From Streptomyces sp. NBC_01454 (GTDB lineage Bacteria > Actinomycetota > Actinomycetes > Streptomycetales > Streptomycetaceae): a DNA stretch of 64,000 nt. The stretch lies in NCBI RefSeq assembly GCF_036227565.1, contig NZ_CP109460.1:124001-188000 (forward strand). The letters are read 5' to 3'. Below, piece after piece: positions 1 to 34,772 of the stretch. The first letter of the stretch is position 1. Each line of letters starts with the position of its first letter. The position numbers were made by a program, and so were the translations under genes. The notes under the pieces are model-generated. The model ran no database searches, had not been told where the DNA came from, and saw nothing but the letters and a program-made list of their open reading frames with translations.

Positions 1-3000
1 GATGCGGAGGAACTGGCCGGCGCTCTGCGGGCCGCGGGCATCGACGCACGGGGCCATGAGCGGCTGCAGGACGTGCCGAGGACGGCGGACGGCGCACAGC
101 CCGGTGAGGAGGCACCGGCCACCGACGTGGTACTCCTCTCCTTCCCACCCGTGCAAGGAGGTGCCGTCGCGCCGGCCGAAGCGGCCCGCACGGCCGTGCA
201 CCGGGCCCTGTCCGGCATCCAGGCCTGGCTGGACGACGCGCGTTTCGAGGCGACCCATCTGGTCGTGGCCACCCGCGGGGCGGTCGCGGCGGGCCCCGAT
301 GCCGAGGTCTTCGACCTCGCCGGCGCGCCGCTGTGGGGACTGGTGCGGTCGGCCCAGGCCGAGCATCCGGGGCGGATCACCCTGGTCGACCTGGACCCCG
401 GTACGGAACCGGCCGGCACCGCGGCTTCCGACACGGACGCCGCAGCTGTGCTGGCGGCCGTCGCCGCGGACGAGCCACAACTCGCGGTACGCGCAGGCAC
501 GTTCCTGCTTCCCAGGCTGGCGCGTGCCTCCGAGGCGGCGGTACGCCCGGATGCGGGGCTCGATCCCGAAGGGGTCGTCGTCGTGACCGGCGGCACCGGC
601 GGGCTCGGAAGGATCCTGGCCACCCATCTGGTCACCGCGCACGGTGCACGCCATTTGCTGTTGCTGAGCAGGAGCGGCCCGGACGCGCCGGGCGCCGCCG
701 CATTGGAGGCGGAACTGGCCTCGCACGGGGCGAGCGTCTCGGTCGTGGCGTGCGACGTGGCCGACCGCGAGGCGCTGGCCGCGGTGCTCGGCGGGCTGGA
801 CCGCCCGCTCACCGCCGTGGTGCACACGGCGGGCGTACTGGACGATGCCATGCTTCCGGCGTTGACGCCGCAGCGGATGGACACCGTGCTGCGGCCCAAG
901 GTCGATGCAGCGATGCATCTGCACGAGCTGACCCGGGATGCGGACCTGGCGCAGTTCGTGCTTTTCTCCTCGGTCGCCGGGGTCCTCGGCGGGCCGGGCC
1001 AGGCCAACTACGCGGCGGCCAACGCCTTCCTCGACGCCCTGGGCCTGCACCGTCGTGCCCTCGGCCTGCCGGCCACGACGGTGGCCTGGGGGCTGTGGGA
1101 GGACGGCGGGCTGACCGCCCACCTGGGCGACACCGATCTGCGCCGGATCGCACGCAATGGTGTACGGGCCCTGTCGGCCGAGCAGGGGGCGGCACTGTTT
1201 GACGCCGCGCTCGCCCGCGACGGGGCGGCCTTCGTGGCCGCACGACTCGATTTCGGGACGCTGCGCCGGCGCTCCGGCCCCATTCCGCCCTTGCTGCGGG
1301 ATCTCGTACGGACCCCTGCCAGGCGTACGGCGGCCGGGGGCGCCGGGCCGGATGAGGGGGTCGCCGGGGAGTGGCTGGCGGGGCTGTCGACGGCGGAGGC
1401 GGAGCGGGCGCTACTCGATCTGGTCCGCACGCATGCCGCGACGGTCCTGGGACACGAGTCCGTGGCGGAGATGCCGTCCGACGGTGTCTTCAAGGACCTC
1501 GGGTTCGACTCCCTGACCGCGGTGGAGCTGCGCAACCGCCTCAACGACCTCACCGGTTTGCGGCTCGCCCCGACGGTGATCTTCGACCATCCGACGGTCG
1601 AAAGCCTCGCCGCGCACCTGCTGGAAACCTGGAGCGGGACCTCCTCGTCCACGGCAGTGCCCGTACGGGCACTGCCGGCCGGGTCGGACGACGAAGACAT
1701 GATCGCGATCGTGGCCATGGGCTGCCGCTATCCCGGGGGCGTCGCCTCCCCGCAAGGGCTGTGGGACCTGGTGGCCTCGGGGACCGACGCCGTGACCGGC
1801 TTCCCCTCCGACCGGGGCTGGGACCTGGATGGACTCTACGACCCGGACCCCGACAAGCCCGGCACCTCTTATGCGCGGGAGGGCGCGTTCCTGGACGAGG
1901 CGGGTCGGTTCGACGCCGCGTTCTTCGGGATCTCGCCGCGGGAGGCGCTGGCGATGGACCCGCAGCAGCGGCTGCTGCTGGAGACATCGTGGGAGACCTT
2001 CGAACGCGCGGGCATCGAGCCGACGTCCCTGAAGGGCAGCGCGACCGGTGTGTTCGTCGGGGCACTGGCGCAGGAGTACGGCTCGACCCTGCTGCACGAG
2101 GCGCCGGCGGGCCTGGACGGCGCGCTGTTGACGGGCAACGCGCTCAGCCTGGCCTCGGGCCGGTTGTCCTACTTCCTGGGACTGCAGGGTCCTGCGCTCA
2201 CAGTGGACACGGCGTGCTCGTCCTCCCTGGTCGCTCTGCACCTGGCGGCGCAGTCACTGCGGCAGGGTGAGTGCACCCTGGCACTGGCCGGCGGGGTGAC
2301 CGTCATCGCGACGCCGGGCACCTTCACCGCGTTCAGCACCCAACGCGCCATGTCCCCCGACGGCCGGTGCAAGCCGTTCGCTGAAGCGGCGGACGGCACC
2401 GGCTGGGGTGAGGGTGTGGGGTTGGTGCTGCTGGAGCGGTTGTCCGACGCCCGCCGCAACGGGCACCCGGTCCTGGCCGTCATCCGTGGTTCCGCGGTCA
2501 ATCAGGACGGCGCCTCCAACGGCCTGACCGCCCCGAACGGCCTTGCCCAGCAGCGGGTCATCCGCTCCGCCCTCGCACACGCCGGCCTGTCGGCCACCGA
2601 CATCGACGCCGTCGAGGGCCACGGCACCGGCACCACCCTGGGTGACCCGATCGAGGCGCAGGCCCTCCTGGCGACATACGGCCAGGACCGCCCGGACGAC
2701 CGGCCGCTGTGGCTGGGGTCGGTGAAGTCAAACATCGGGCACACGCAGGCCGCGGCCGGGGTAGCCGGAGTGATCAAGATGGTGCAGGCCATGCACCACG
2801 GCATCCTCCCCCGCACCCTCCACGTCGACGCGCCCTCCCCCCATGTCGACTGGACCACCGGCGCCGTGGAACTGCTCACCGAGCAGGGGCCCTGGCCGGC
2901 TGCGCACGGACGCCGTCGGGCGGGGGTCTCCTCCTTCGGCATCAGTGGGACCAATGCCCATCTGATCCTGGAGGAGTCGCCGGACGCGCCCGCAGCACCC

Positions 3001-6000
3001 CCGTCCGGCCCCGACAACGGCACCGACGCCGGCACCGGCTCTGACACACAGCCGGCGGGCAAGGACGCCACCGTCCTGCCCCTGGTGATCTCAGCACGCG
3101 ACCAACAAGCACTCCACGCACACGCCGAACAACTCGCCACCTTCCTCGACCACCACCCCCACACCCCCCTCCACGACATCACCCACACCCTCGCAACCCG
3201 CACCACCTTCGAACACCGCGCAGCCCTCACCCACACCACCCACACCGAACTCGCCACCGCCCTACGCACCCTCCACACCCCAACCCCCCACACCCACACC
3301 CACACCGGACCCACCCTCACCGACCCCGTCTTCGTCTTCCCCGGCCAAGGCAGCCAATGGCAAGGCATGGCCCTCGACCTCCTCCACACCAACCCCACCT
3401 TCACCCAACAACTCCACGCCTGCCAAGAAGCCCTCGACCCCCACATCGACTGGACCCTCACCGGCGTCCTCAACAACCAACCCCACCAACCCCCCCTCGA
3501 CCGCGTCGACGTCGTCCAACCCACCCTCTGGGCCGTCATGGTCTCCCTCGCCACCACCTGCCAAACCCTCGGCATCCAACCCGCCGCAGTCCTCGGCCAC
3601 TCCCAAGGCGAAATCGCCGCCGCCACCATCGCCGGCGCACTCACCCTCCACGACGCCGCCCGCATCACCGCCCTCCGCTCCCAACTCCTCACCACCCTCA
3701 CCGGCAACGGCGCCATGACCTCCCTCGCCACCGACCCCCACACCGCCCAAACCCTCATCAACACCCTCCACCTCGACGCCCACATCGCCGCCATCAACAG
3801 CCCCACCCACACCGTCATCTCCGGCACACCCCAAGCCCTCAACCAACTCCAACACCACTGCGACCACCACCACATCCGCGCCCGCCAAATCCCCGTCGAC
3901 TACGCCTCCCACTCACCCCAAATGGAACAACTCCACGACAAACTCCTCCACCACCTCACACCCATCACCCCCCAACCCACCACCACCCCCTACTACTCCT
4001 CCCTCACCGGAACACACCTCAACGGCACCGAACTCACCCCCGAATACTGGTACCAAAACCTCCGCCACACCGTCGACTTCCACACCGCCACCCAAACCCT
4101 CCTCAACACCCACCACCACACCTACCTCGAAATCAGCCCCCACCCCGTCCTCACCCTCCCCCTCCAACAAACCCTCCAACACCACCTCCCCCCCACCACC
4201 CCACACACCATCCTCCCCACCCTCACCCGCAAACACAGCACCCAAAACGACCTCCTCACCACCATCGCCACCGCCTACACCCAAGGCATCCCCCTCCACC
4301 CCACCCCCACCACACCACCCCACCCCAACCTCCCCACCTACCCCTTCCAAGGCCACCACCACTGGCTGAAGGCGGCCCCAGGGGCGTCCCGCGGTGGTGC
4401 CGGTATCGGGGCGGTGCGCGCAGAGCACGCGCTTCTGGGGGCGGTCGTCGAACTCCCCGACTCCGAGGCGGTGTTGTTCACGGGACGACTGTCGACGGCC
4501 GGCTACGGCTGGCTCGCCCGGCGCGACATCGGCGGTGCCCCCCTCGTACCCGAATCGGTGCTGGTCGAACTGGCCGGCCGGGCCGGTGATCAGGTGGGCC
4601 TCGGGAAGCTGGCGGAGCTGACGGTGCAGACCCCGCTGGTACTGCCGGAGTCCGGTGCCGTCCAGCTCCGGGTCACGGTCGGTGAGCCCGGGGAGACGGG
4701 GACACGTCCGGTGTCCGTGCACGCACGGCGGGGCGACGAAGGCGTCGGACGGCCATGGACGTGCCATGCCACGGGCTTGCTGACCGAGGAAGGTTCGACG
4801 CCCTCTTGGGACCTGGAGGCCTGGCCCCCGGCCGAGGCCGAGGACGCACCGTCCGCCCCGGAAGGGGCGGACGTCCCAGGGAGCTCCGAGGCGGTCGTGT
4901 CCGCCGTGTGGCGACGTGGCGACGAGCTCTTCGCGGAAGTCGCCCTGCCCGAGCAGCTGCGGGCGGAGGCAGCGGAGTTCGGACTGCACCCGGTCCTGAC
5001 CAACGCGGCGCTGGATCTGCTGCCGATCGACGACGTGCTGCCGGAGCCCGCACGGCCGTCGCGAGCCGTGGACTGGCAGGGGGTTTCCCTGCACGCCTCC
5101 GGGGCCTCCGTCCTGCGGGTGCGCATCAGCCCCCTGCCGGACGGCTCCTTCTCGGTACGGGCGGCCGATGCCACCGGCGCCCCGGTGCTGACGGTGGAGT
5201 CGCTGACGCTGCGACCGGTTTCCCGGAGCGGTGTCCGTGCGGCGGGCGCCGCCCAGCAGGACGGGCTGTTCGGCGTGGAGTGGACCGAGGTGGACCTCGC
5301 GGCGGTGGCCGGCGCGGCGCCCGCCACGTGGGCAGTCGTCGGCGAGGACACGCTGCGGGTTCGGTCGGGGCTGATGTCAGCGGGCCAGTACGCCGAGACG
5401 TACCCCGATCTGGCGGCGTTGTCCGCGGCCGTCGGTGACTCCTCCGAAGCACCCGCGGTGGTCGTGGTGACCTGCGCGTCCGAGGCGTCGGGGGCAGTGG
5501 AGCGGACCGGCGGGGAACTCGCGGGCGCCGTCCACGACACCACGCGGCGGGCGCTGGAGTGGGCACGGTCCTGGGTGACGACACCCGCGTTCGACCGGTC
5601 CCGGATGGTATTCCTGACCCGGGGTGCGGTGCCCGCCTGGGAAGGCGGCGGGGTGAGCGGCCGGCTCGACCTCACAGCGGCCGCGGTCTGGGGACTGGTG
5701 CGCTCGGCGCAGACCGAATTCCCGGGCCGCTTCCTGCTGGTGGATACCGATGGCGGCAAGCCGGCCTGGCGTGCGCTGCTCAAAGCCGTGGGCTCCGACG
5801 AGCCGCAATGGGCCCTGCGCAAGCGGGCGGTACGGGTGCCGCGGCTGGCCCGCCTCTCTCCCGTGAGCGATGCCGGTGCGGCGGCGCTGCCCGAAGGCGC
5901 TCAGGGCACGGTACTGGTCACCGGCGGAACGGGCCTGCTGGGCTCCGCGGTGGCGCGTCACCTGGTCGCGGAACACGGCGTACGGGACGTGCTGCTGACG

Positions 6001-6972
6001 GGCCGGCAGGGCCTCGGCGCACCGGGCGCGGTCGAGCTCCAGGCGGAACTGACCGCATCGGGTGCGCGGGTCACCGTGGCCGCCTGCGATGTGACGGATC
6101 GCCAGGCACTGGCCGACCTGCTGGCGGGCATTCCGGCGGACCGTCCGCTACGGGCCGTGATGCACACCGCCGGTGCGCTCGACGACGGGGTCATTCCGTC
6201 CCTGACGCCCGACCGGCTGAGCGCGGTGCTGCGGCCCAAGGTGGACGCGGTGCTCGCGCTGCGCGAGGCGACCCGGGATGCGGACCTGTCGGCGTTCGTG
6301 TTGTTCTCGTCGGTCGCGGGCATCCTCGGCGGCGCGGGACAGGGCAACTACGCGGCGGCCAATGCCTTCCTGGACACGTTCGCGTACGAGGCACGCTCCC
6401 AGGGAGTCCCCGCTACCTCGATCGCCTGGGGCATATGGGGTGGTCGTGACCTGCTCACCGCGGGCAAGGCGCGGCTGGCGCTACCGGGGGTGGGGGAACT
6501 CCCTCCGGCGCACGGGCTCCAGTTGTTCGACGCGGCGCGCGGGCTGGGGCACGGGCTCACCGTCGCGGCCCGGCTGGACTTCGGTGTGCTGCACGAGCGG
6601 GCCAGGGCCGGTGAGGCACCTGCGCTGCTCCGTTCGCTGCTGCCGGCCCCGGCGCGCCGGTCGGCGCAGGACACCCCGGCAAAGCCGTCGGAATTGCGGC
6701 ACCTGCTGGCCGCGATGACCGACGAGGAACGCGACGCGACGCTGACCGATCTTGTGCGGGAACAGATCGCGGCCGTGTTGGGGTACTCGTCCGCAGACTC
6801 GGTGACCGCGACCACGGAGCTGAACGGGCTCGGCTTCGACTCCCTGACCTCGCTCACCCTCCGCAACGCCCTGAACAACGTCGTCAAGCTCCCCCTGGCT
6901 CCTGGCGTGGCGTTCGACTTCACGACACCCGTCGAACTGGCCCGGCACATCAAGGAACAGCTGCTCGCCTGA
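1..6972 (+). CDS. Modular type I polyketide synthase, C-terminal part (KR-ACP / KS-AT-DH*-KR-ACP), 5' end outside window
   Basis: The frame is already open at base 1, so the start lies upstream. Domain order: a KR (Rossmann motif near 575-605, LDD motif of B-type KRs, catalytic Tyr in [10 protein letters not shown] near 1012); an ACP (DLGFDSL near 1500); a KS (DTACSSS near 2205-2225); an AT (GHSQGE near 3595, YASH near 3900, the methylmalonyl signature); a DH remnant; a KR (LDD, Tyr in [10 protein letters not shown] near 6350); and a last ACP (LGFDSLTS near 6830). The DH has lost its catalytic His (Arg codon at 4522-4524), its catalytic Asp (Asn codon at 5002-5004) and the YGP motif, so it should be inactive. 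The protein ends directly after the ACP with no thioesterase and no docking tail, unlike the other PKS ends here. The AT-coding part is extremely C-rich and G-poor. The next gene, a KAS III homologue, begins 38 bp downstream and probably takes the acyl chain from this ACP (inference). Confidence 0.95.
3070..4370 (+). repeat. Intensely strand-skewed AT-coding segment (GRINS-like)
   Basis: Over about 1.3 kb the + strand becomes almost G-free and C/A-rich, and returns abruptly to normal composition at both ends. The encoded AT is correspondingly rich in His, Thr, Pro and Gln (for example [17 protein letters not shown]). Such islands are known as GRINS in assembly-line PKS genes. A second copy is not in this window. 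Confidence 0.7.
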
Positions 6973-7010
6973 ACCGGCCCCGGGGCCGGACGGAAACGGA
7001 GAGATCCCGC

Positions 7011-8045
7011 ATGAGGGTAGAGAACGTCCACATCAACTCACTGGGAGTCACTCTGCACGAGTGGGTGAGCGCGGAACAGGCCGTGGCCGACGGCCTCCTC
7101 GGCTCGGAGGTGCCGGCGGCGAACGGACTCACCGGAACCCATGTGTCCAAGGACGTGCCGGCCGTCGACCTGGCGGTGTCGGCTGCCCGGACCGCCCTGG
7201 AGCGTTCGAAGCTCGACCCCGACGAGATAGCGTCGCACCTCCACAGCGGGGTCTACTACCAAGGGCCCGCGGGCTCCTATCCACCGGGGTACATCCAGCG
7301 GGAGCTGGGCCTGGAGGGTGTCTCCGCGCTCTACCTCCAGCAGGGCTGCAACGGCATGCTGGGCGCCTTGGAGGTGGCCATCGGCCAGATCACCGGTGCC
7401 TCGGAGACGGAGGCCGTGCTGCTGACCACGGGAGAGAACTTCACCTCCCCGGAGATCGACCGGTGGACGGGCTACGGCCAGTCGTACTTCCTGGGCGATG
7501 GGGGCGCCGCCGCTCTGCTCAGCGCAGAGGAGGGTTTCGCCGAGGTGCGGTCGCTGCACGCCGGACTGCTGCCCGCCCTGGAGAAGTGGCACCGCGGCGA
7601 CGCCCCGCTGCTGCTGCGCGATGAGCCCGGGTCGATGGCGGACATGGCGGAGCGGGCCGAGCGGTTCACCGAGACGGAACTGTCGCTGTCGGAGACGCTG
7701 GAGAAGCTGAGCGTCTTCGACCTGGGCGTCATCCACCGGGCCCTGGTCGACGCCGACGTGAACGCGTCCGACCTCGCCAAGGTGGTGCCGATCCACATGG
7801 ACGGCCGGATGATCGAGTTCTCGGTCATGACGCCGCTCGGGTTGCCGATGTCGAAGTCGTCCTTCGACATCGGCAAGGGCGTCGGTCATGTCGGCGGCGC
7901 GGACGTCTTCCTCTCGCTGGAGCATCTGGTCCGCACGCGGGAGGTCGGCCCGGGTGACCACGTCCTGCTGATCTCCCAGGGCCCCGGCTGGATCTGCACC
8001 GCGTGCGTCGTCACCATCAGCGAACTCCCCACCTGGGCGGAGTGA
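7011..8045 (+). CDS. KAS III-like acyltransferase, ChlB3/CerJ family (copy 1)
   Basis: A 344-residue thiolase-fold protein starting at an ATG behind a GGAGAG ribosome site. The active-site Cys is Cys113 in QGCNGML. The FabH catalytic His is kept as His262 (IHMDGRM). The FabH Asn region reads GHVGGAD, with His293 and Asp298, the arrangement typical of ChlB3/CerJ-type enzymes. Those relatives do not condense chains; they move an acyl group (6-methylsalicyl, orsellinyl, malonyl) from an ACP or CoA to a hydroxyl of a sugar or aglycone, or between carriers. The gene follows the TE-less PKS by 38 bp and must be co-transcribed with it, so the likely donor is the acyl chain on that PKS's last ACP. 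The acceptor is unknown. A closely similar second copy lies at 10319-11356. Family assignment is firm; substrate is inference. Confidence 0.88.
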   Translation: MRVENVHINSLGVTLHEWVSAEQAVADGLLGSEVPAANGLTGTHVSKDVPAVDLAVSAARTALERSKLDPDEIASHLHSGVYYQGPAGSYPPGYIQRELGLEGVSALYLQQGCNGMLGALEVAIGQITGASETEAVLLTTGENFTSPEIDRWTGYGQSYFLGDGGAAALLSAEEGFAEVRSLHAGLLPALEKWHRGDAPLLLRDEPGSMADMAERAERFTETELSLSETLEKLSVFDLGVIHRALVDADVNASDLAKVVPIHMDGRMIEFSVMTPLGLPMSKSSFDIGKGVGHVGGADVFLSLEHLVRTREVGPGDHVLLISQGPGWICTACVVTISELPTWAE

Positions 8046-8072
8046 CGGCACCCCCGCCTTCTTCCGCGGCAC

Positions 8073-8126
8073 AGGCCGGAGCGCCGGGGCGAGCCCGTCA
8101 AAGGGCTTGCCCCGGCGCTCCGGCCT
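8073..8126. terminator. Strong bidirectional hairpin terminator
   Basis: The arms 8073-8096 and 8103-8126 pair over 24 bp with a single G-U pair around a 6-base loop (8097-8102), followed by TCTT on the + strand. It lies between the converging KAS III copy 1 gene and the glycosyltransferase gene on the - strand and can stop both transcripts. Confidence 0.85.
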
Positions 8127-8205
8127 TCTTGGGGACGGTCACCGAAGCCGTCAGCAGCAGCGGGTTTCCTCGCCCGTCCAGCGGCACACCTTCGGTGACA
8201 TGTGC

Positions 8206-9417
8206 TCAGCCGGCCACCCGGACCCGCGATTCCAGCATGTCCGCCGCACGGGTCACTCCGCCGGCGGCGTCCGTCAGCTCCCGCATACGGCGCAGCCGGG
8301 TACGTGTGGCCTCGTCGGCGATCAGGTGCTGCAAGGTGGTGACGATCTGCTCCTCAGTGGTCTCCCGGGGGTGGTCGAGCAGCACTCCCAGCCCCAGCTC
8401 CGCCGCGCGTGCGCAGGTGACCTGATGCTCCGGCAGATGAGGTGCCATGATCATCGGGGTGCCGGTGTGCACCGCGCCCATGAGGCTTCCCAGGCCGCCG
8501 GAGGTCACGAACACATCGGCATGTTCCAGGGCGGCGATCTGGGGGATCCACGGATGCACCTCGATGTTGGCGGGCACGGCCCCCAGTGTGGTGGTGTCGA
8601 AGCCGTTGCCCACCGTGATGACGGCGCGCCAGGGCCGGCCACTGAGCGCACGCACGCAGGTGCGGAAGAACTCCGACTGCGCTTGGGACATGGTCCCCAT
8701 GGAGATCACGACCAGGGGGGTGTCGTCCTGCGGGGCGTCCCAGGTGGCAGTGAGGTCTTCCGTGAGGAAGCACGGCCCGACGAAGGCGGTCTCGTCGCCG
8801 AAGGTCTCCTGGGCGGTCTGGAACACTCGGGGTGCGTACACCACGCTGTCCACCGGCCGGTGCCAGCCCAGCAGTTCCTCGACGGTGGCGGAGAGCCCGC
8901 GTTCCTCGGCGACCTCTCCGGCGCGGCGGAAGACTTCGGGGAACGCCGGGTGGTCCTCGGGGACGCCGATCATGGCGAACATGGTGTCGAGGTCCGAGTA
9001 GTGCGCATTGGAACCCATGGCGGGGATGGACTGCACGACGGGGCGGTTCCAGAGCAGTCCCAGGGCCCGGCCTGCGAAGGAAAGGGATGTGTCGTGGAAG
9101 AGGAGATCGGGCGGATCGTCGGTGAGGTGTTCCTCGGCCGCCCGCATCACTGCCTCGCTCTCGTATTGGAGCATGACGAGTGACCAGGCCATTTGGTCAG
9201 GGGGGAGATCTACGTCCTGCCCGGCGGTAAACGCCTCGGCCAGCGGCGAATCGTAGGGCACCACGCGGGCGCCGGTTTGCTCGACGGCCCCGGTGAATCC
9301 TCCCGGCGTCAGAAAGCTTACGCGGTGCCCCCTGCGCACAAGCTCTTCGGTGACGGCCAGGGAGGGACGCATATGCCCGTGAGCGGGAATGCAGAGAACA
9401 GCAATATGGCTGGACAC
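8206..9417 (-). CDS. Macrolide-type glycosyltransferase (GT-B, family 1)
   Basis: A 403-residue GT-B enzyme. The N-terminal AHGHMRPS motif corresponds to the catalytic-His motif of OleD/OleI-like macrolide glycosyltransferases. The C-terminal donor-binding region (TSGGLGSLMGAVHTGTPM, then PEHQVTCARAAELGLG) also fits that family, but the usual HAG/HGG of the nucleotide-sugar motif is SGG here, so the His is replaced by Ser. It stands alone between a strong terminator and a 308-bp upstream gap, so it probably has its own promoter. Two roles are possible: attaching a deoxysugar of the final product, or self-resistance by glucosylating the macrolide as OleI does. The sequence alone does not decide. 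Confidence 0.87.
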   Translation of the reverse strand: MSSHIAVLCIPAHGHMRPSLAVTEELVRRGHRVSFLTPGGFTGAVEQTGARVVPYDSPLAEAFTAGQDVDLPPDQMAWSLVMLQYESEAVMRAAEEHLTDDPPDLLFHDTSLSFAGRALGLLWNRPVVQSIPAMGSNAHYSDLDTMFAMIGVPEDHPAFPEVFRRAGEVAEERGLSATVEELLGWHRPVDSVVYAPRVFQTAQETFGDETAFVGPCFLTEDLTATWDAPQDDTPLVVISMGTMSQAQSEFFRTCVRALSGRPWRAVITVGNGFDTTTLGAVPANIEVHPWIPQIAALEHADVFVTSGGLGSLMGAVHTGTPMIMAPHLPEHQVTCARAAELGLGVLLDHPRETTEEQIVTTLQHLIADEATRTRLRRMRELTDAAGGVTRAADMLESRVRVAG

Positions 9418-9725
9418 GGCGACGCTTCTCCTCGTTGAGTACAGGGCCGCAGGGAACTCCGGCTGAGCACGGACAGGCCGGCGGGCCCTACCCGGATCCG
9501 GGTTTCCTTGCGAGCGTGCGGGGTCCTGAAATGCGGTGTCAACGAGGGCGCTGCATGACTAGTTGATTCATGGTGTGCGCAGCGGCCGCCCGGCGCTGGA
9601 TGTCACCAAGGGGGCGGAGACACACCGAAGGGCGGAGGTATCAGCGGGTGTCCGACGCTCGCGGCGCCGGGACGGCACTGATTCCTCCGCCCTGCCTCGT
9701 TCCAGCCCGTCGCCGGGGCGGTGGA
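9418..9725. other. 308-bp gap upstream of the glycosyltransferase; probable promoter region
   Basis: No coding region is convincing here. The only structure I see is a weak dyad at 9554-9572 (arms CATGA and TCATG, 9-base spacer), about 140 bp before the glycosyltransferase start. It does not match the PimM-like boxes found elsewhere in the window. A core GGGAACTCC near 9450 is also too weak a match to call. Confidence 0.3.
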
Positions 9726-10166
9726 TCAGGCTTCGGTCCAATTGTGCGCAGCGACCAGTTCCATGACGCGCTTGCGTACCTGAACGAGCTGTGCCGCGGT
9801 GAGCGAGGGAGCAGCTTCGAGCAGCGCCTCGGTCAGTTCGTTCCGGAATTCGGCGTGGGACAGGACATCGCACAACAGGTCCGCCTCGGACTCCGCGCTC
9901 CCCTGCCCTTCCGGACCGCCGGCCACCGGAGCCGGCCGCCGCACCGCGGCCGCGCGCACGGGCCCCAGCAGCTTTACGTCGCTGGCCTTGAGCCCGCGCT
10001 CCCCGACCTCCGTGGTGTACTCGACCCTGAGCCCACTGCCGAACAGGTGCTTGTCGTCCCGCAAGTCGTTGGCATGGACGAAGACGTCCTCGCCACCGGC
10101 GTCGGGGGCGATGAAGCCGTACCCGCGCACCTCGTCAAATCGCACCACTGTACCTGTAGCCACCAC
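9726..10166 (-). CDS. Cold-shock-domain protein with a C-terminal helical extension
   Basis: About 146 residues. The start chosen is a GTG (second residue also Val) preceded by GAGG six bases upstream; the frame could be read from another GTG four codons earlier. Residues 1-65 form a cold-shock/OB fold with the RNP-1-like motif RGYGFIAP and the RNP-2-like motif DVFVHANDL. Family members bind single-stranded RNA or DNA. The remainder is a short Ala/Pro linker and a helical region (about residues 85-146) beyond the usual ~67-residue CspA-type length. Extended proteins of this type are common in Streptomyces. It lies downstream of KAS III copy 2 on the same strand with a 152-bp gap, so it may share that transcript or have its own promoter. 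A regulatory or RNA-chaperone role is likely; no specific target can be seen. Confidence 0.85.
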   Translation of the reverse strand: MVATGTVVRFDEVRGYGFIAPDAGGEDVFVHANDLRDDKHLFGSGLRVEYTTEVGERGLKASDVKLLGPVRAAAVRRPAPVAGGPEGQGSAESEADLLCDVLSHAEFRNELTEALLEAAPSLTAAQLVQVRKRVMELVAAHNWTEA

Positions 10167-10318
10167 AGCGTTCCTCACCCTCTACACCCTCTGCCACTGC
10201 ACATTGTCACCCTCAAGCACCCCACAGGAGCTCGGCACCCGGGCCCGGCACGGCAGGTGTGCGCCGTTCCGTCTCTTCCTCGGTCCCGTCCCCCCCGGTG
10301 CGGTCGTTCGCCGAGGTG

Positions 10319-11356
10319 TCACACGGCCCACGGGGGCGGATTCAGCACGGTCACCACGCTCGCCGTGCAGAGCCAACCGGGCGCCTGGGAAAACAACAGG
10401 ACGTTATCACCCGTACCCACCTCGCCCGTACGGACCAGATGCTCCAGCGAAATGAAGACATCGGCCCCTCCCACGTGCCCGACCGACCTCCCGAAATCGA
10501 AGCTCGACCGCTCCATGGGGAGGCCGAGCGGCATCATCGTCCCCCACTCCAGCATCCGCCCGTCCATATTGATCATGACGACCTTGGCGAGGTCGGAGGC
10601 GTTGAGCTCGGCGTCCACCAGGGACTCGTGAATGACGTCCATGTTGAAGTGCGTGATCTTCTCCAGGGCCTCGGACAGCGGCATTTCGGTTTCATTGAAG
10701 TGCTGCGCCCGCTCGGGCATGCTCTGCGTTTCCTCGGGACTCCCGGGCTCCAACAGCGGCCCATTGCCGCGGTGCCACTTTTCCAGTGGGCTCAGGACGC
10801 CGGAACTCAGGGAACGCACCTGGGCGAACCCTTCGTCGGCGTTGAGCAGAACCGCCATGCCGCCGTCGGAGAAGAAGTGCGACTGACCGAAGCCGTCGTT
10901 CCAGCGGTCAGCTCCCGGCGCGGTGAAGTTCTCGCCCGAGGTCAGCAGTATCGCCTCGGCTTCCGCGGCACCCGTCATCTGTCCGATGGCCACCTCCAGG
11001 GACCCCAGCATGCCGTTGCACCCCTGCCGGAGGTACTGCGCCGTGGCCTTCCCGATGCCGAGCTCGCGCATGATGTAGCCCGGCGGGTAAGACCCCACGG
11101 GTCCCTGGTAGTTGACCGCACTGTGAATAAGTCCGTCGATGGCGTCGACATCCGTCTTCGAGCGCTCCAGGGCGGTCCGGGCGGCGCTGACCGCCATGTC
11201 CATCGCCGGGATGTCCCCCGCGGCGTAGGTGCCGGTGAGTCCGTTGGTCTTGGGAATCTCCGGGTCCAGGATGCCGTCGGCGACCGCCTGCTCCACGCTC
11301 AGCCATTCAGGAAGGAACACTCCCAGGGAGTCGATGTAGACGTCATCCACCTTCAC
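10319..11356 (-). CDS. KAS III-like acyltransferase, ChlB3/CerJ family (copy 2, His-to-Asn variant)
   Basis: About 345 residues from a GTG start placed seven bases after GAGGAG; an upstream in-frame ATG overlaps that ribosome site and is less likely. It aligns with copy 1 (7011-8045) over its whole length with no large gaps. Cys113 (QGCNGML) and the His294...Asp299 pair (GHVGGAD) are kept. The residue equivalent to the FabH catalytic His, His262 in copy 1, is Asn263 here (INMDGRM). It begins 36 bp after the stop of the DH-KR-ACP gene, so the two are an operon, just as copy 1 follows the PKS tail by 38 bp. Likely role: transfer of an acyl group to or from the free-standing ACP. The missing His suggests a changed or reduced function, or specialisation in one half-reaction (inference). 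Confidence 0.86.
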   Translation of the reverse strand: MKVDDVYIDSLGVFLPEWLSVEQAVADGILDPEIPKTNGLTGTYAAGDIPAMDMAVSAARTALERSKTDVDAIDGLIHSAVNYQGPVGSYPPGYIMRELGIGKATAQYLRQGCNGMLGSLEVAIGQMTGAAEAEAILLTSGENFTAPGADRWNDGFGQSHFFSDGGMAVLLNADEGFAQVRSLSSGVLSPLEKWHRGNGPLLEPGSPEETQSMPERAQHFNETEMPLSEALEKITHFNMDVIHESLVDAELNASDLAKVVMINMDGRMLEWGTMMPLGLPMERSSFDFGRSVGHVGGADVFISLEHLVRTGEVGTGDNVLLFSQAPGWLCTASVVTVLNPPPWAV

Positions 11357-11392
11357 GAACAATCTCCTCATTCCGTGTGGCGCCGAGGCCGG

Positions 11393-13999
11393 TCAGCATG
11401 CGAGCAGTTCTGTCTTGAGGTGCTGCGCCAGCGCTTGCGGGCTGGCGAAGTCGAACACCACCGCGGGGGGCAGGGCGAGTTGGGTGGCCTCGTTCAGTGC
11501 GTTGCGGACCGTCAGGGCCGTCAGCGAGTCGAAGCCGAGATCCCGGAACGCGTGGTCCGGTCCGATCTCCTCGGCAGCGGCCTGGCCCAGGCCGGCGGCC
11601 ACGTGCCGGCGTACCAGTTCGAGGAGGGTCTCGTCCCGCTCGGCGTCGGTCATCGTGGCGAGGCGGTGGCGCAGCGCGGACGCCTCCGCCGGCTCGTCCT
11701 GCGCCACCGGCCGGGCCGGCCTTCGCACCAGTGCGCGCAGCAGGGGCGGGAGGCCGCCGGCCGCGGCCTGGGCGCGGATTTCGGCGCCGTCCAGCCGTGC
11801 CGCGACCACATGGCCCTCGTCCAGGCCGCGCACCGCATCGAACAGTTCCAGGCCCTCGGCCATGGGGAGGGGCTGCACCGGCAGCCGGGCGGAGCCGGGC
11901 GCCGGGACGTCCCGGCCGGCCCACAGGCCCCAGGCGATGGACAGGGCCGGGGCGCCCTGCGCCCGGCGGTGCCGAGCAAAAGCGTCCAGGAAGACGTTGG
12001 CCGCGGCGTAGTTGCCCTGGCCTGCGCCGCCCAGTACCCCCGCGATGGACGAGAACACCAGGAAGGCCGACAGGTCCAGGCCCTTGGTCGCCTCGTGCAG
12101 GACCAGCGCGGCGTCCACCTTGGGCCGCAGCACCGCCTCCAGCCGGCCGGGCGTCAGGGACAGCACGATCCCGTTGTCGGCGACGCCTGCCGCGTGCACC
12201 ACGGCAGTGAGCGGTCGGTCGTCCGGCAGCGTTGCCAGCAGGAGGTCCACCGCACCGCGGTCGGCCACGTCGCACGCCGCGAGCGTCACCTGTGCGCCGA
12301 GCGCGGTCAGCTCGGCGCACAGTTCCGCGGCACCCGGGGCGTCAGGTCCACGGCGGCTGGTCAACAGCAGGTCGTGTACGCCGTGTTCGGTGATGAGGTG
12401 TCGGGCAAGGGCTGCGCCCAACAGGCCGGTGCCGCCCGTGAGGAGGACCGTGCCGCGCCGACCGGCGAACAGCGGCGCGCGCTCGGCCGGGGCGGCGCGC
12501 CGGACCAGCCGGGGCACACGTGAGGCGCCCTTGCGCAGCGCGAGTTGGGACTCGTCGGACCCGGCGACGGTGAGCAGGGTACGCCAGGCGGCCTTGCTCG
12601 CGTCGGTATCGACGAGGCGGAAGCGGCCGGGCGCCTCGGTCTGCGCCGAGGCGATCAGCCCCCACACGGCGGCCGCGGCGAGGTCCGGCGCGGTGGTCTC
12701 GTCCCAGGCGGCGACCGCGTCACGGGTGAGGACGAGCAGCGTGGCGGCGGTGAAGGCGGGAGTCCGCAGCCACTCCTGGGCCCAGGACAGTGCCTGCCGG
12801 GTCAGCCGGTGGACGGTGTCCGCGGTGTCGACACCGCCGGTCTCCGTGCTTGCGGTCACCACCACGACGTCCGGTACGGACGCGCCGCCGTCGATCTCCT
12901 TGGCCAGGGCCTCCAGCGTCGGGTACCGCTCGGCGTACTGTCCGGCCCGCATCAGTCCGGACCGCGCCCGGAGCGGGTCGTCGCCCACGACGGCCCACGA
13001 GGTGGGGACGTCCACCGCGACCGACGCGCTCGGCGCATCGGTCCACTCCACCCGGAACAGGCTGTCCTGCTGGGCCGCGCCCGCGCCCCGGAAGGCGTGG
13101 GGGGACACCGCTCGCGGTTCAAGGTGCTCGACGGTGAGCACCGGCCTGCCGGTCGCGTCGGCGGCAACGACAGTGCACTCCCCTGACGGCGCCCAGGTGA
13201 TCCGTACGCGCAGGACCGACGCTCCCGCCCTGTGCAGGCACACCCCCCGCCACCGGCCCGGCTCCCTCGCCGTTCGCGCGTCGTCGTCGCCGCCCTGCGC
13301 CCACAGCGGGTGCAGCGCCGCGTCCAGCAGGGCGGGGTGCAGGCCGAACGCCGCGGCCTGCGCGCGATGCTCCTCGGGAAGGGCGATCTCGGCGAAGAGG
13401 TCGTCGCCGCGCCGCCACACCCCCCGCACCCCTTGGAAGGCAGGGCCGTACTCGTGGCCGGCGGCGGCCAGTGCGGGGTACAGCTCGGTGGTCTCCACAG
13501 CGGTGGACTCGGCCGGGGGCCAGACGTCGAGGCGCCACGACGGGGCGGGACCGCTCGCGGCGACGGTGCCGGTGGCATGGCAGGTCCACGGCCGGCCGGT
13601 GCCCCCGTCGTCCCGCCGGGCGTGGACGGTGACCGGCCGGCGGCCGGTCACGTCCGGTGCGCCGACCATCACCCGGAGCTGGACGGCGCCCTGCTCCGGA
13701 AGGACCAGCGGCGCCTCCAGGGAGAGCTCCTCCAGCAGGCCGCAGCCCACCTCGTCACCCGCACGGACCGCCAGCTCGACCAGCGCCGAGCCGGGTACAA
13801 CGGTGCGCTCGGCCACCCGGTGGTGGGCCAGCCAGTCGTGGGTCGGTGCCGAAAGGCGCCCGGTGAACAGCACCGCCTCGGAGTCGGGGAGCTCCACGGT
13901 CGCGCCCAGCAGGGGGTGCTCGGTGGCTGCGGCCCCCACGGCGGGGGCCGCACCGGCGTCGTGCGGCTCGTCCGGCGGCCGCATCAGTTCGGTGCGCAT
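11393..13999 (-). CDS. Free-standing DH-KR-ACP polyketide synthase fragment (no KS, no AT)
   Basis: 868 residues from an ATG; a GTG 12 bases upstream (14011) is an alternative. The DH is intact: His60 ([13 protein letters not shown], the usual Gly replaced by Glu), YGP at 184-186 and Asp226 in [10 protein letters not shown]. The KR has its Rossmann motif near 516-530 and Tyr664 in [10 protein letters not shown], but the LDD motif of B-type KRs reads ADN. The ACP carries Ser825 in [14 protein letters not shown]. No KS or AT sequence precedes the DH. The protein is most similar to the DH*-KR-ACP tail of the + strand PKS (1-6972), sharing phrases such as [16 protein letters not shown] and the non-standard ACP helix. 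It looks like a complete functional unit acting in trans, or the surviving tail of a lost module; its DH could supply the dehydration that the dead DH cannot (inference). Confidence 0.88.
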
Positions 14000-14229
14000 C
14001 GTGGCACTCACTCTCAGGCGCTCCCAACACATCGGGGAATGGGGTTCCGGCATCGGGGCGACACGGGCCGCCCGGGCACCCCCGGCACCTTCCCGCCCGC
14101 ACTTCCGATGCCCGGCACAGCTCCGGGCCCGGCGGAACGCCCTCGCGTCTGCCGGGCAAAGGCCTACGCCGCCGGCACACGACCGCGAGAAACGCTTGCC
14201 TGTCCGGCACCAGTATCTGCAGTGCGATG

Positions 14230-14245
14230 GTGGGAGATTCCCTAG
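14230..14245. promoter_or_regulatory. Candidate PimM-like (PAS-LuxR) operator
   Basis: GTGGGAGATTCCCTAG matches 13 of 16 positions of the PimM consensus CTVGGGAWWTCCCBAG. It lies about 230 bp upstream of the DH-KR-ACP start. No PAS-LuxR regulator gene is in the window. Confidence 0.4.
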
Positions 14246-14350
14246 GACTTGTCCGGCCGCACTCCTGCGCAGCGCGATCATGTGGAAAGGCTCATCCCGT
14301 GTGCTCCGTCGGCGATCCGGGCAAGGGCATGGTGGTTCACCGCCACGGCT

Positions 14351-14366
14351 CTATGGCAATTCCTAG
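14351..14366. promoter_or_regulatory. Candidate PimM-like (PAS-LuxR) operator
   Basis: CTATGGCAATTCCTAG matches 13 of 16 consensus positions and is flanked by a TCTA...TAGA dyad. It lies about 197 bp upstream of the sugar 3-dehydratase start. Confidence 0.4.
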
Positions 14367-14562
14367 ACTTCACGAGCCGATCTGGCCCCTGCCGGAGCGG
14401 CGTGCTGAAGTGAAGGCCCCCGATCAGCCGACCGGATACGCAACGCCTGTGTGCCGCGTGGCGAATCGTCGGATCATTCGCGCGCGGCGCCGCGCACCGG
14501 GATCACACCCTGGGGCAGCGCGACGGAACTTCGAGCAGGACACTCACAGGAGGCGGCAGTCG

Positions 14563-15864
14563 ATGGGGTACAGCAAGAGTGACATTCTGGAGCTGGTACG
14601 CGAGTACCACCAGGGGAACGTCGCTTCCGGATTCGTGCCAGGGGTGACGCCGGTGCCGGCCTCAGGCGCCGTCCTCGACGAGGACGACCGGGTCGCCCTT
14701 GTCGCAGCGGCCCTCGACCTGCGGATCGCGGCCGGGACCAGTTCCCGCAGGTTCGAGCGTGCGCTCGCCAAGTTCTTCGGGCTGCGGAAGGCGCATCTGA
14801 CCAACTCCGGCTCGTCGGCCAATCTGCTGGCGCTCAGTGCGCTGACCTCGCCCCAGTTGGAGGATCTGCGGCTGATGCCGGGGGACGAGGTCGTCACGGT
14901 GGCAGCCGGTTTCCCCACGACGGTGAACCCGATCATTCAAAACGGTCTGGTACCGGTCTTCATCGACGTCGAACTCGGTACGTACAACGCGTCCCCGGAA
15001 CGTATCGAGGAGGCCATCGGCCCGCGCACCCGGGCCATCATGATCGCCCATGCGCTCGGCAACCCGTTCGCCGTCGAGGAGGTCGCGAAGATCGCCGACG
15101 AGCGGGGCATGTTCCTGATCGAGGACAACTGCGATGCACTGGGCAGTACCTATCGCGGCAAGCTGACCGGGACCTTCGGGGACGTGGCGACGGAGAGCTT
15201 CTATCCGGCCCACCACATCACCATGGGCGAGGGCGGGTGCGTGGTGACGGACAACATGGTGCTGGCCCGGATCGTGGAGTCACTGCGGGACTGGGGGCGC
15301 GACTGCTGGTGCGAGCCCGGTGAGGACAATCGCTGCTTCAAGCGGTTCGAGCAGCAGATGGGCGACCTGCCGCACGGCTACGACCACAAGTACATCTTCT
15401 CGCACGTCGGGTACAACCTGAAGTCGACCGACCTGCAGGCCGCGCTCGGCCTCTCGCAGTTCACCAGGATCGAGGATTTCGGTGCCGCCCGGCGGCGCAA
15501 CTGGTCACGGCTGCGTGCCGGGCTGGACGGCCTGCCCCATCTCCTGCTTCCCGAACCCACGCCCGACAGCGACCCGAGCTGGTTCGGCTTTGTGATCACC
15601 GTCCGGGACGGCGCGCCCTTCTCGACCGCCGACATGATCGAACACCTGGAGTCCCGGCGGGTGGCCACCCGCCGCTTCTTCGCCGGTAACCTCATCCGCC
15701 ACCCGGCCTATCTGTCACGGGAGTTCCGGGTGAGCGGGCCGCTGACCAACAGCGACACCATGGCCGAGCGCACCTTCTGGATCGGGGTGTTCCCCGGGCT
15801 GACCGGCGAGATGATCGACCACAGCATCCGGAGTATCACCGAGTTCGTCACCTCCCGCACCTGA
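14563..15864 (+). CDS. NDP-4-keto-6-deoxyhexose 3-dehydratase (E1/SpnQ type, PMP and [2Fe-2S])
   Basis: 433 residues from an ATG behind AGGAGG (14548-14553). It has the aspartate-aminotransferase fold of the DegT family, but the PLP-binding Lys is His217 in SFYPAHHITMGEGG, the hallmark of PMP-dependent 3-dehydratases such as CDP-sugar E1, SpnQ and UrdQ. Four cysteines, Cys190, Cys248, Cys250 and Cys258, reproduce exactly the C-x57-C-x-C-x7-C [2Fe-2S] motif of E1. The reaction removes the C3 hydroxyl of an NDP-4-keto-6-deoxyhexose, giving the 3-deoxy sugars that lead to amicetose or rhodinose when C2 is also deoxygenated. The enzyme needs an electron donor (ferredoxin or E3-like reductase). 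The 2,3-dehydratase and 3-ketoreductase expected before it are not in the window. It is transcribed alone and ends at a strong terminator. Confidence 0.92.
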   Translation: MGYSKSDILELVREYHQGNVASGFVPGVTPVPASGAVLDEDDRVALVAAALDLRIAAGTSSRRFERALAKFFGLRKAHLTNSGSSANLLALSALTSPQLEDLRLMPGDEVVTVAAGFPTTVNPIIQNGLVPVFIDVELGTYNASPERIEEAIGPRTRAIMIAHALGNPFAVEEVAKIADERGMFLIEDNCDALGSTYRGKLTGTFGDVATESFYPAHHITMGEGGCVVTDNMVLARIVESLRDWGRDCWCEPGEDNRCFKRFEQQMGDLPHGYDHKYIFSHVGYNLKSTDLQAALGLSQFTRIEDFGAARRRNWSRLRAGLDGLPHLLLPEPTPDSDPSWFGFVITVRDGAPFSTADMIEHLESRRVATRRFFAGNLIRHPAYLSREFRVSGPLTNSDTMAERTFWIGVFPGLTGEMIDHSIRSITEFVTSRT

Positions 15865-15951: not shown

Positions 15952-17178
15952 TCAGGTCGCCACTGTCGAGGCGGAGGGGGCGGCCCACTGCTCCAACAGG
16001 CCCGCGGCCCGTGCCGCGCCGCCTGCCCCGCGCACGCTGGCGCGCATCCAGGCCATCCGCTCCGGGATCTCCGGGTCGGCCACGATGTCGCCCACGGCGG
16101 CGCCCAGGGTGTCCGCGGTCAGCCGGTCGCGGTCGATCATCCGGCCCAGGCCCAGCTCCGCCACGCGCCGTGCAGTCAGGATGTGTTCGAAGCCCTGGGG
16201 CACCACGACCACGGGTGTGGCGAAGTGCAGCGCCTCCATGAGACAGCTCATGCCACCGTGGCAGACCAGGACGTCGGCGTGCGGCAGTACCGCCGGGTGC
16301 GGCAGCCACCGGTAGGCCTGTACATGCGGCGGGAGGTCGCCGAGGCCGGCGAGGTCCGCCTCACGGCCGAGGGTCATCACCACCTGCCACTCGGCTCCGT
16401 CGAAGGCATCCGCACAGGTACGGAAGAAGTCACGCTGCCGGTTGGACTCGGTCCCGAGGGAGACCAGCGCGGTCCGCCTGCCGTCGGCCGGCGGCGACCA
16501 CGGCACGTCCCCCTCGAGCTCGGTGATCGTGGGCCCGACGAAGGCATAGCTCTCGTCGAACGTGGTGCCCTCGATCTGGAACTCGCGCGGCAGGAAGGCC
16601 AGGTTGCGGTCGTCCCACTCCCGCAGGAAGCGGTCCAGCCCGTCCGGGGCGAGGTCGTTGTTCCCGGCGAACCGCATCAGTGCCGCCCCGCCCTCGCGCA
16701 TCGACGGGGCGTCGGGGTCGAACAGCAGCTTGCGCATGGAGAACACTTCGTTCGCCGCATGGCTGATGCCCAGCTGCACGGTCGGGACGCAGCCGAGGGT
16801 GTGCGCGATCATCCGCGCGGCCGGAAACGACTCGAAATCGTAGAGCACGATGTCCGGCGGGTCGGCCGCCAGGGTGGAGAGCGCGAGCGGATAGACCCGC
16901 TCCATCGACTCGACCAACAGGTCATGGCCTTCGGCCGCCATACGGGTCCCGTCGGCGTCGGGCACCTTGGCGAACGCACCGCGCCGGGACGTGTAGACCA
17001 CGGCCCGGGCGCCGGTACGCTCGACCACCTCGCGGTACTGGTGATCGACGAAATACGTCACCCGGTGCCCGCGGCGGATGAGTTCGCGGGTCAGGCCGAG
17101 CGTCGGGCTGATGTGCCCGAAGTCGGCGAACACGAACACGGCGACATGCCGCCTGGGGGTGGCTGCGAATGCTGACAC
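15952..17178 (-). CDS. Macrolide-family glycosyltransferase (GT-B, MGT type)
   Basis: About 408 residues. I place the start at a GTG 10 bases after the stop of the 4-ketoreductase gene, with AAGG seven bases before it; the open frame runs further upstream but overlaps the ketoreductase tail. The N-terminus (DFGHISPTLGLTRELIRRGH) carries the acceptor-site His of MGT-type enzymes. The C-terminal half carries the donor motif CHGGMSCLMEAL followed by VPQGFEHILTARRVAELGLG, close to OleI/OleD-like glycosyltransferases. Being last in a sugar operon (thymidylyltransferase, 4,6-dehydratase, 4-ketoreductase), it most likely transfers the deoxysugar made by these enzymes to the macrolide or to a first sugar. 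It ends at the bidirectional terminator 15876-15922. Confidence 0.88.
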   Translation of the reverse strand: MSAFAATPRRHVAVFVFADFGHISPTLGLTRELIRRGHRVTYFVDHQYREVVERTGARAVVYTSRRGAFAKVPDADGTRMAAEGHDLLVESMERVYPLALSTLAADPPDIVLYDFESFPAARMIAHTLGCVPTVQLGISHAANEVFSMRKLLFDPDAPSMREGGAALMRFAGNNDLAPDGLDRFLREWDDRNLAFLPREFQIEGTTFDESYAFVGPTITELEGDVPWSPPADGRRTALVSLGTESNRQRDFFRTCADAFDGAEWQVVMTLGREADLAGLGDLPPHVQAYRWLPHPAVLPHADVLVCHGGMSCLMEALHFATPVVVVPQGFEHILTARRVAELGLGRMIDRDRLTADTLGAAVGDIVADPEIPERMAWMRASVRGAGGAARAAGLLEQWAAPSASTVAT

Positions 17179-17188
17179 ATCGACACCT

Positions 17189-18297
17189 TCATTCGGGCTG
17201 CGGTAGGGGGCGGATCGGCGGAGGCCAGCTGCTCGTGCTGCCACCACAACGGGGGTCGTCCGCGGTCTCCGGCCGGGGCGAGGCCGGCACGGCGGCTGCC
17301 GGGTGGTCCGGGGGCGACGGTTCGGCCCCGGGGGCGGTGGCCTCCCACAGGTCGCGTACCGAACTGTCGATGCCGTGGCGCACATTCCAGTGGAGCAGCC
17401 GTCTGGCCATGGCGGTCTCCACCCGCATCCAGTCGGTCCCGGCGGCGGCCCGGGCGTCGGGCTCCGCCTCCTCGACGATCCGTGCCTGCCGGCCGCTGAC
17501 GGCGATCAGCCGCTCCACCATGGTGCGCACGGGGACCGCCTCGCCCCGCCCGACGTTGATGAGCTCGTTGCCGAGCGGCAGGGCCGCCGCCGCCAGCACC
17601 GCGTCCGCGGCGTCCCGGGCGTCGACGAAGTCCCGGCTCGCCCGCAGCGGGCTGAGCCGCACTATTGCTTCCTCGTCCGTCTCCACGGCCCTCAGTTGCG
17701 CCGCGACGCGCCCCAGCAGGCTGCCCGGTGAGGTGCCTGCGCCGATCGTGTTCGATACCCGCAGGACGACCGCCGCCACCTGCCCGGCCGCGGCGGCCGT
17801 GCGGACCGCTTCGGTCCCCTGCAGTTTCGTCCGCCCGTACAGCGTGGTCGGCCGGGTCGGCGTCCGCTCGTCCAACGAGATGCCCGGCGGCTGCGGGGTG
17901 TACTCGTGCACCGAGCCCACGTGGACCAGCCTGGGGCGCCAGGAGGCGGCGGCCATGGCCGCCAGCACCTTGTCGACCAGGACGTGGTTGGCCTGCCACA
18001 TGACCTCCGGCGAACACAGCCATGCGGCGCCGGCGGCGTTCACCACGGCGTGGGGCCGCTCAGCGTCGATGAGGCGGGCCAGGCCGTCCGGTCCCTCGCC
18101 GATCAGGTCCATCGGGAAGAACCGTCCTGCCCCGGTCGCGGGGCCCGGCCGGCGTGCCACCGTCAGCAGCTCCCCGCCGGCGGCGCGTAGCGCCGCACAG
18201 ACGTGGCGGCCGACGGCTCCGGTCGCGCCGAGGACGATGATCCGGCGGTGGCTACCGTCCGGGTCTTCCGCCGTGCTCACGTTGTCGTGCTCCGCCC

Positions 18298-18304
<7 letters not shown>
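17189..18304 (-). CDS. NDP-hexose 4-ketoreductase (extended SDR, NAD-dependent epimerase/dehydratase family)
   Basis: About 371 residues from an ATG that overlaps the stop of the 4,6-dehydratase gene (ATGCTGA), suggesting translational coupling; a GTG 7 codons later is an alternative. The nucleotide motif is VLGATGAVGRHV near residue 26, and the SDR catalytic pair appears as YGRTK after a Ser in VGSVHEY. It resembles the 4-ketoreductases of deoxysugar pathways (UrdR/LanR group), which set the C4 hydroxyl as the last step before transfer. The last 45 residues are a Pro/Ala-rich tail with no recognisable fold. The neighbouring sugar genes fit this role; the stereochemistry it produces cannot be read from sequence. 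Confidence 0.82.

Positions 18305-19299
<995 letters not shown>

Positions 19300-23837: not shown

Positions 23838-34772
<10,935 letters not shown>

Follow-up and report, generated by a model that had tools for sequence, protein, structure and literature searches.

Paired carrier and KAS III genes in a PM100117-type locus of Streptomyces sp. NBC_01454: a proposed thioesterase-less acyl relay

How does a polyketide acyl chain leave an assembly line that ends in an acyl carrier protein (ACP) and has no thioesterase (TE)? The question is raised by a stretch of 64,000 nucleotides from Streptomyces sp. NBC_01454 (the window; positions 124001-188000 of the 8.36 Mb contig NZ_CP109460.1, 72% G+C), in which two genes for a dehydratase (DH), ketoreductase (KR) and ACP in succession are each followed by a gene related to beta-ketoacyl-ACP synthase III (KAS III). 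A preliminary description of this DNA saw here a duplicated cassette that offloads a chain onto a hydroxyl as an ester, or shuttles it between the two ACPs. As judged from gene content and order, the locus is very probably the part of a PM100117-type 36-membered macrolide cluster that makes and transfers a naphthoquinone (NQ) acyl unit. The best overall explanation, with a probability of roughly 0.6, is a relay in series in which the NQ acyl chain would pass from the last ACP of the polyketide synthase (PKS) P8 to the KAS III enzyme S2, the ACP of the protein SL, the KAS III enzyme S1 and a sugar. The features that carry the argument are the following.

1..6972, plus strand: P8 (gonP8 counterpart), the C-terminal 2323 of 4211 amino acids (Pfam, joined frame, motifs)
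1699..4290, plus strand: ketosynthase (KS) and acyltransferase (AT) of P8 module 2, with YASH, methylmalonyl-type (Pfam, joined frame)
4426..5232, plus strand: DH* of P8 module 2, with catalytic His, Asp and YGPxF lost (Pfam, motifs)
5896..6450, limits approximate, plus strand: KR of P8 module 2, with Ser/Tyr/Lys and NADPH motif intact
6736..6969, limits approximate, plus strand: terminal ACP of P8 (GFDSL), with no TE or docking tail
7011..8045, plus strand: S2 (gonS2 counterpart), ChlB3/CerJ-type KAS III with the triad Cys113-His293-Asp298
10319..11371, minus strand: S1 (gonS1 counterpart), ChlB3/CerJ-type KAS III with Cys, His and Asp kept; likely start GTG 11356
11393..14011, minus strand: SL (gonSL counterpart), DH-KR-ACP without ligase, KS or AT; start ATG 13999 or GTG 14011
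11417..11614, minus strand: ACP of SL (GFDSL)
11918..12454, minus strand: KR of SL, with Ser/Tyr/Lys and NADPH motif kept
13094..13918, minus strand: DH of SL, with catalytic His, YGPxF and Asp kept

Frames and domains of both cassettes are as first described. P8 stops at 6972 and S2 runs from 7011, a gap of 38 nt. On the minus strand the listed open reading frame of S1 starts at 11371, 21 nt after the end of SL (11393); the originally given gap of 36 nt holds with the likely start, a GTG at 11356 behind a purine-rich stretch. Homologue counts are minimum numbers, given among the matches listed (at most 120 proteins, with part of the candidates scored). SL, of 868-872 amino acids, most likely starts at 13999 (ATG) or 14011 (GTG) and not at 14281, because its closest relative among those matches, P0001, starts at the equivalent of 13999 and P0002 at that of 14011. 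A glycosyltransferase gene and a cold-shock-domain gene sit between the cassettes. Alignment bears out their paralogy, far beyond chance: the P8 tail and SL are 58% identical over 858 positions (E 0) and S1 and S2 65% over 344 (E 3e-169), SL being only 44% identical to P8 module 1. P8 and SL both end directly after the ACP, with neither TE nor docking tail, and the motifs of the P8 tail DH mark it, as supposed, as inactive (Arg for the catalytic His, Asn for Asp, no YGPxF). Compared with a type I PKS extension module, SL lacks both KS and AT (Pfam).

The further claim, that no system with such an arrangement had been described, does not stand. Streptomyces caniferus GUA-06-05-006A has counterparts of all four genes, in matching order and among matching neighbours, published in 2016 as gonP8-gonS2 and gonSL-gonS1 of its PM100117/PM100118 cluster (PMC4763440). 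That cluster was identified because the S. caniferus entries P0006 (83% identical to SL) and P0125 (79% identical to S1) pointed to the paper; P0006 is equated with GonSL by species, size (1107 aa) and name, not by accession. Table 1 of the paper gives the order gonP7-F1-G1-GS-D2-R1-G2-D3-SL-S1-A-G3-MT-S2-P8-G4-T1-T2-R2-E-CM-H1-T-M1-M2-F2-M3-M4-R3-CP (PMC4763440), of which the window and its flanks hold P7, G1, GS, D2, R1, G2, D3, SL, S1, A, G3, S2 and P8 in gon order. From the stretch gonSL-S1-A-G3-(MT)-S2-P8, which stands amid macrolide and deoxysugar genes, gonMT alone is missing; the open reading frame list holds no fitting frame at its place or at that of gonG4. PKS sizes here and in gon are 3938 and 3959 aa for P3, 5263 and 5234 for P4, 8481 and 8461 for P5 and 3644 and 3641 for P7; P6 is shorter here, with 4608 aa against 5238. 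Further differences are an SL without ligase (half a ligase in P0006), a P8 with two modules (one there) and about 20 kb of extra genes upstream. The locus is thus a variant form of a described type of system, and the novelty of its overall arrangement is not upheld; by sequence comparison, what appears new is the ligase-less SL, the joint retention of ACP and KAS III, and the two-module P8.

The published genetics and chemistry show what the four genes are needed for. S. caniferus no longer made PM100117/18 when gonP8 was disrupted or when gonSL, gonS1, gonS2 or gonMT was deleted; NQ-less analogues appeared, and complementation partly restored production (PMC4763440). The NQ unit is attached to the second sugar and bears the third (PMC4763440); cyphomycin, a related compound, has its NQ acyl carbonyl in an ester on O-4 of amicetose (PMC6355912). 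These reports support the earlier proposal of TE-less offloading, as an ester on a hydroxyl, by KAS III enzymes of the ChlB3/CerJ type. A gonE mutant released an NQ acid of m/z 297 and a precursor of m/z 239 (PMC5103430), values that the masses computed for C15H14O5 and C12H8O4 fit; the NQ acid of gon fits an aryl acid lengthened by one methylmalonyl unit and still bearing its beta-hydroxyl.

In S. caniferus a single product depends on every one of the four parts, and they are therefore taken to act in series. P8's own ligase would activate the aromatic acid and its modules would extend it, and the finished acid would stay on the last P8 ACP for want of a TE. S2 would then accept the acyl group on its active-site Cys and hand it to the SL ACP, from which S1 would take it and hand it to a macrolide sugar hydroxyl, yielding the ester. 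SL would not be needed for starting, since P8 brings a ligase and a loading ACP of its own; and since SL has an ACP and a KAS III and nothing to load or extend, P8-ACP, S2, SL-ACP, S1, sugar is the simplest order. Acyl shuttling between the two ACPs is accordingly the preferred of the two options first offered and a plausible one, and the direction from P8 to the acceptor, which leans on analogy, has slightly better than even odds. The direct basis for the relay in this genome consists of orthology, motifs, the coupling of each KAS III to its ACP and the loss of the ligase from SL, and two KAS III enzymes are present, as a relay would need. If the relay is true, KAS III-linked carriers would be a transferable means of releasing modular PKS chains as esters without a TE, useful for placing new acyl groups on macrolide sugars.

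An analogous series is known from chlorothricin, where ChlB3 (Cys-His-Asp) moves 6-methylsalicylic acid from the ACP of the type I PKS ChlB1 to ChlB2 and ChlB6 then transfers it onto the antibiotic (PMC9573744). Common to ChlB1-ChlB3-ChlB2-ChlB6 and the relay proposed here are a KAS III-like enzyme, a second ACP, a second transferase and the lack of a TE. The second carrier there, ChlB2, is a small discrete ACP, whereas here the ACP ends a DH-KR-ACP protein of 868-872 aa that is related to a PKS module. Whatever the kinship of ChlB6 to ChlB3, the two transferases of the present locus are close paralogues. Other members of the family offer partial likenesses: AfcL shares the triad of S1 and S2 (PMC12186527), and PtmR of pactamycin is named among the KAS III-like enzymes (PMC7466098). 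CerJ (cervimycin) and DpsC belong to the same subfamily as S1 and S2 by sequence and fold, but CerJ uses malonyl units. To our knowledge, none of CerJ, PtmR, DpsC and AfcL is paired with a paralogous PKS-derived carrier and transferase. Also comparable are L043/P0017, L044/P0016 and P0011 with P0127 (found together on a contig of 128163 bases), in which a DH-KR-ACP without KS and AT is followed by a KAS III of the same family; they differ in a complete ligase, a KR without Tyr, a DH without YGPxF and the absence of P8 from the stretches inspected.

The gon authors read the same genes differently. GonSL would activate the starter and the KAS III enzymes would move it to GonP8, the final transfer being left open (PMC4763440); the paper states that no information was available on elongation of the NQ acid and only speculates on its transfer (PMC4763440). 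On this account SL would activate or hold the starter, a KAS III would carry it to the P8 loading ACP, and the other KAS III or P8 would attach the product. A starter could be loaded onto such an ACP in cis, as L043 and L044 show with their complete ligase, adjacent KAS III and no P8 in the stretches inspected. Alignment to the P8 ligase nevertheless makes the account unlikely for the present locus. In SL here, as in P0001 and P0002, just the first few residues before the DH are left; in seven relatives (P0003-P0009, S. caniferus included) the ligase ends after about 240 residues, its later motifs and catalytic Lys gone and the Lys of TSGTTGxPKG changed to Glu in 7/7; and five (P0011, P0014, P0016, P0017, P0018) have a complete one. 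By this comparison the free-standing protein is GonSL minus the ligase domain, and its relatives form a series of complete, half and none. P8 itself retains a complete ligase and loading ACP (alignment, motifs). Among the seven, moreover, the half ligase has a mean pairwise identity of 81%, against 87-92% for the DH to ACP regions, and in three pairs it is 79-83% identical against 86-92% for the same stretch of P8, a lower identity from which the remnant is concluded to evolve faster than its P8 counterpart. (For two of the matched strains SL and P8 carry one and the same strain name; the third pair was matched only as S. platensis.) The GonSL ligase, published as "apparently active" (PMC4763440), is hard to reconcile with a half ligase if P0006 is GonSL. 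The ligase-less SL thus weakens the idea of GonSL as a starter activator, and a version so trimmed down helps to show which parts matter.

Among the relatives surveyed, KAS III and ACP accompany each other. Occurrence was counted at E 1e-80. A KAS III of the S1/S2 type occurs in 16 of 392 genomes of a genus sample, S1 and S2 together in the window's own genome only, and in 12 of 395 genomes of an overlapping sample of relatives. Of 17 matches in the genus sample outside the own genome, 16 were inspected with their flanks, the one left out being the second end copy of G226; a pattern search reached 8 named loci, none gon-type, and gon-type relatives are known as proteins only. Leaving out the window itself, and L038 and L039 as repeats of L010 and L011, there are 22 distinct loci (8 named, 14 unnamed), and at 18 of them the nearest KAS III relatives stand directly behind a PKS-type ACP; among the other four, L051 has an upstream ACP match missed by the script and L047, L052 and L053 have none. 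Of ten loci with an SL or second ligase-type gene, three have a KAS III adjacent to that gene (the window, L043, L044), and in all three the gene retains the ACP; at the seven with no KAS III adjacent to it (L010, L011, L013, L014, L040, L041, L042) the ACP is missing. This split gives a Fisher p of 0.008, over loci that are not independent. At those seven, where it stands beside a P8-S2 pair, the gene is reduced to ligase-DH, with part of the KR region kept in L011. KAS III distances track those of the upstream modules (Mantel r 0.90, 20 pairs) with shared ancestry not removed, so that common descent contributes to this correlation. In G253 (L044, L054, L056) a complete ligase-DH-KR-ACP with one KAS III lies near menaquinone-type genes, with no P8 in the stretches inspected; it is possibly a minimal unit that would attach an unextended aryl acid. 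G226 has three KAS III matches, two of which (C1:67626-68657 and C1:9736657-9737688) are equidistant from the two chromosome ends and opposite in orientation, apparently one gene at both ends, as in terminal inverted repeats. Menaquinone-type genes are nearby in 4/4 genomes checked (G253, G013, G226, G169) and in L011, the same locus as that of G169.

Several observations weigh against a relay through SL as a plain carrier. In five genomes (G302, G169, G013, G226, G110) a P8-type tail and its KAS III adjoin a second ligase gene that has neither ACP nor KAS III, from which one KAS III per cluster may be enough for offloading (G226 has a further KAS III elsewhere). Between G3 and S2 there is no gonMT, a gene that S. 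caniferus requires for NQ; another methyltransferase gene lies upstream. SL, finally, has intact catalytic domains that a pure carrier role does not explain: the DH His, YGPxF and Asp and the KR Ser, Tyr and Lys are each kept in 10/10 SL sequences, of which the window's alone was seen adjoining its KAS III. The three DH motifs occur together in 0 of 21 other terminal modules, and the KR residues in 13 of 21 (17 modules beside a KAS III, the window's included, and four gon-type P8 known as proteins only, with L013 and L014 left out). In the three matched organisms the DH and KR of SL (88-89% and 89-92%) are also better conserved than those of P8 (82-86% and 85-87%), a difference that neither a carrier role nor any other reading considered here explains well; the stretch before the KR is slightly less conserved in SL (85-88%) than in P8 (86-91%), and the ACP regions are similar (85-91% and 86-90%).

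The same motifs and identities favour SL as a working processing module that extends nothing: S2 would deliver the chain, the KR, the DH or both would alter it, and S1 would unload it. An active DH would give the wrong product, the mass of the PM100117-type acid fitting a retained beta-hydroxyl, and with the KR of P8 apparently intact no obvious task is left; the gon authors, besides, report important substitutions in the KR and DH of GonSL (PMC4763440), a remark that the conserved, intact domains seen here contradict. Such a module is rather unlikely on balance. A little less doubtful, as a tentative reading of the motifs, is SL as a KS/AT-less PKS module entered and left through two KAS III enzymes in place of ketosynthases, whose intact KR and DH would act on the chain before it reaches the sugar; that this station would then derive from a cis-AT PKS module is equally tentative. 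That the SL DH supplies the dehydration missing from P8 is conceivable, though the published masses of gon-type acids agree with a hydroxyl that is kept. A decaying remnant without a role, to which the stepwise loss of the ligase might point, can be virtually dismissed: the frame is open, DH, KR and ACP motifs are kept in nine 90%-identity clusters of relatives (P0001-P0009, among the matches listed), contrary to a remnant confined to this strain, the DH and KR are at least as conserved as those of P8, and the published deletion, in which gonSL was required in S. caniferus, contradicts it (PMC4763440).

Are the two units fresh copies of one another? In trees S1 and S2 belong to two different clades, both well supported and both holding close relatives from other strains. 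The SL-S1 line branches outside the P8-S2 line, which the KAS III tree shows less firmly than the module tree. The pairs are therefore old units, and a recent tandem duplication of the cassette was rejected. Their separate age, together with relatives that have a single pair, would suit two parallel units that attach different acyl groups at different sites; loss of either pair, however, removes the same NQ unit in S. caniferus, and this already disfavoured arrangement is very improbable. As for the enzymes that the relay would use, the S2 triad (Cys113, His293, Asp298) occupies the same alignment columns in S1 and compares with Cys113, His296 and Asp301 of ChlB3 (PMC9573744). S1 and S2 are nearer to the ChlB3/CerJ subfamily than to FabH by sequence, and by fold for the S1 model only. 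A loss of the catalytic His in S1 was considered and rejected: the Asn at the position of the IHMDG His of S2 occurs also in ChlB3 and 18 of 19 other KAS III rows, and S1 keeps the ChlB3-type His and Asp. The IHMDG His is common to the S2 relatives P0132 and P0133; the pattern gave no match in P0135. In L048 (G117) and L049 (G125), KAS III relatives adjoining an ACP have Ser for the catalytic Cys, as does DpsC.

P8 itself differs from its counterparts. It comprises ligase-ACP-[KS-AT-DH-KR-ACP]-[KS-AT-DH*-KR-ACP] in 4211 aa, starting 5.7 kb upstream of the window (L004:14337), and thus has two extension modules against one in the gon-type P8 proteins P0209, P0210, P0212 and P0213 (2395-2414 aa). 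Their sole module is orthologous to module 2 here (DH-KR 83-85% identical); module 1 is the extra one, with intact DH and KR motifs and an AT with YASH, a motif of methylmalonyl-type AT domains (PMC3943440). Two-module P8 proteins were found also in G169, G013 and G226. Because P8 carries this extra module, a longer acid is predicted for the strain, Ar-CH=C(CH3)-CH(OH)-CH(CH3)-COOH, if both modules work. At least 1.27 kb of DNA is identical between the KS-AT regions of the two modules, and the AT domains agree in 330/330 aa, whereas the remainder of the modules differs; this would reflect recent gene conversion or an assembly effect. A reciprocal loss of ligases between SL and P8 was also considered, and dropped because the P8 ligase is present in G169, G013 and G226 too.

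The remaining features of the window are these.

8206..9417, minus strand: glycosyltransferase in the place of gonG3 (Pfam, gon Table 1)
9726..10178, minus strand: cold-shock-domain protein in the place of gonA (gon Table 1)
14227..15864, plus strand: DegT-type sugar enzyme (gonD3 counterpart), whose true start is probably later
15952..17385, minus strand: glycosyltransferase in the place of gonG2
17189..21781, minus strand: deoxysugar genes and a glycosyltransferase in the order gonR1, gonD2, gonGS, gonG1
23838..64000, minus strand: macrolide PKS genes in the order gonP7, gonP6, gonP5, the last continuing to 74127

The gonP7 counterpart, with its TE, was checked with Pfam; those of gonP6 and gonP5 are assigned by size and position only. 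A cytochrome P450 gene (22189-23415, plus strand) lies between P7 and G1, on the strand opposite to them, where gon Table 1 has a ferredoxin only. Beyond P8 follow two ABC-transporter genes, an epimerase/reductase-family gene, an RmlC-type epimerase gene, a C-methyltransferase gene and a Pfam-less gene at the place of H1; further out lie other genes over about 20 kb, then a thioesterase gene, four menaquinone-type genes of the futalosine type (some 35-41 kb before the window begins, two of them with PF02621 and two of the radical SAM/CofH_C kind), a GFO/IDH-type oxidoreductase gene and a P450 gene. The genes in the roughly 20 kb between the C-methyltransferase and thioesterase genes are not in gon Table 1, and include those for an SsfX3/GDSL-type hydrolase (L004:3471-4622, minus strand), a 3263-aa Ig-like repeat protein (L005:7494-17285, plus strand) and a sulfotransferase (L004:6129-7463, minus strand). 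The last would be in keeping with sulfation of the product; caniferolide A, for one, has been described as a sulfate ester (PMC10669366).

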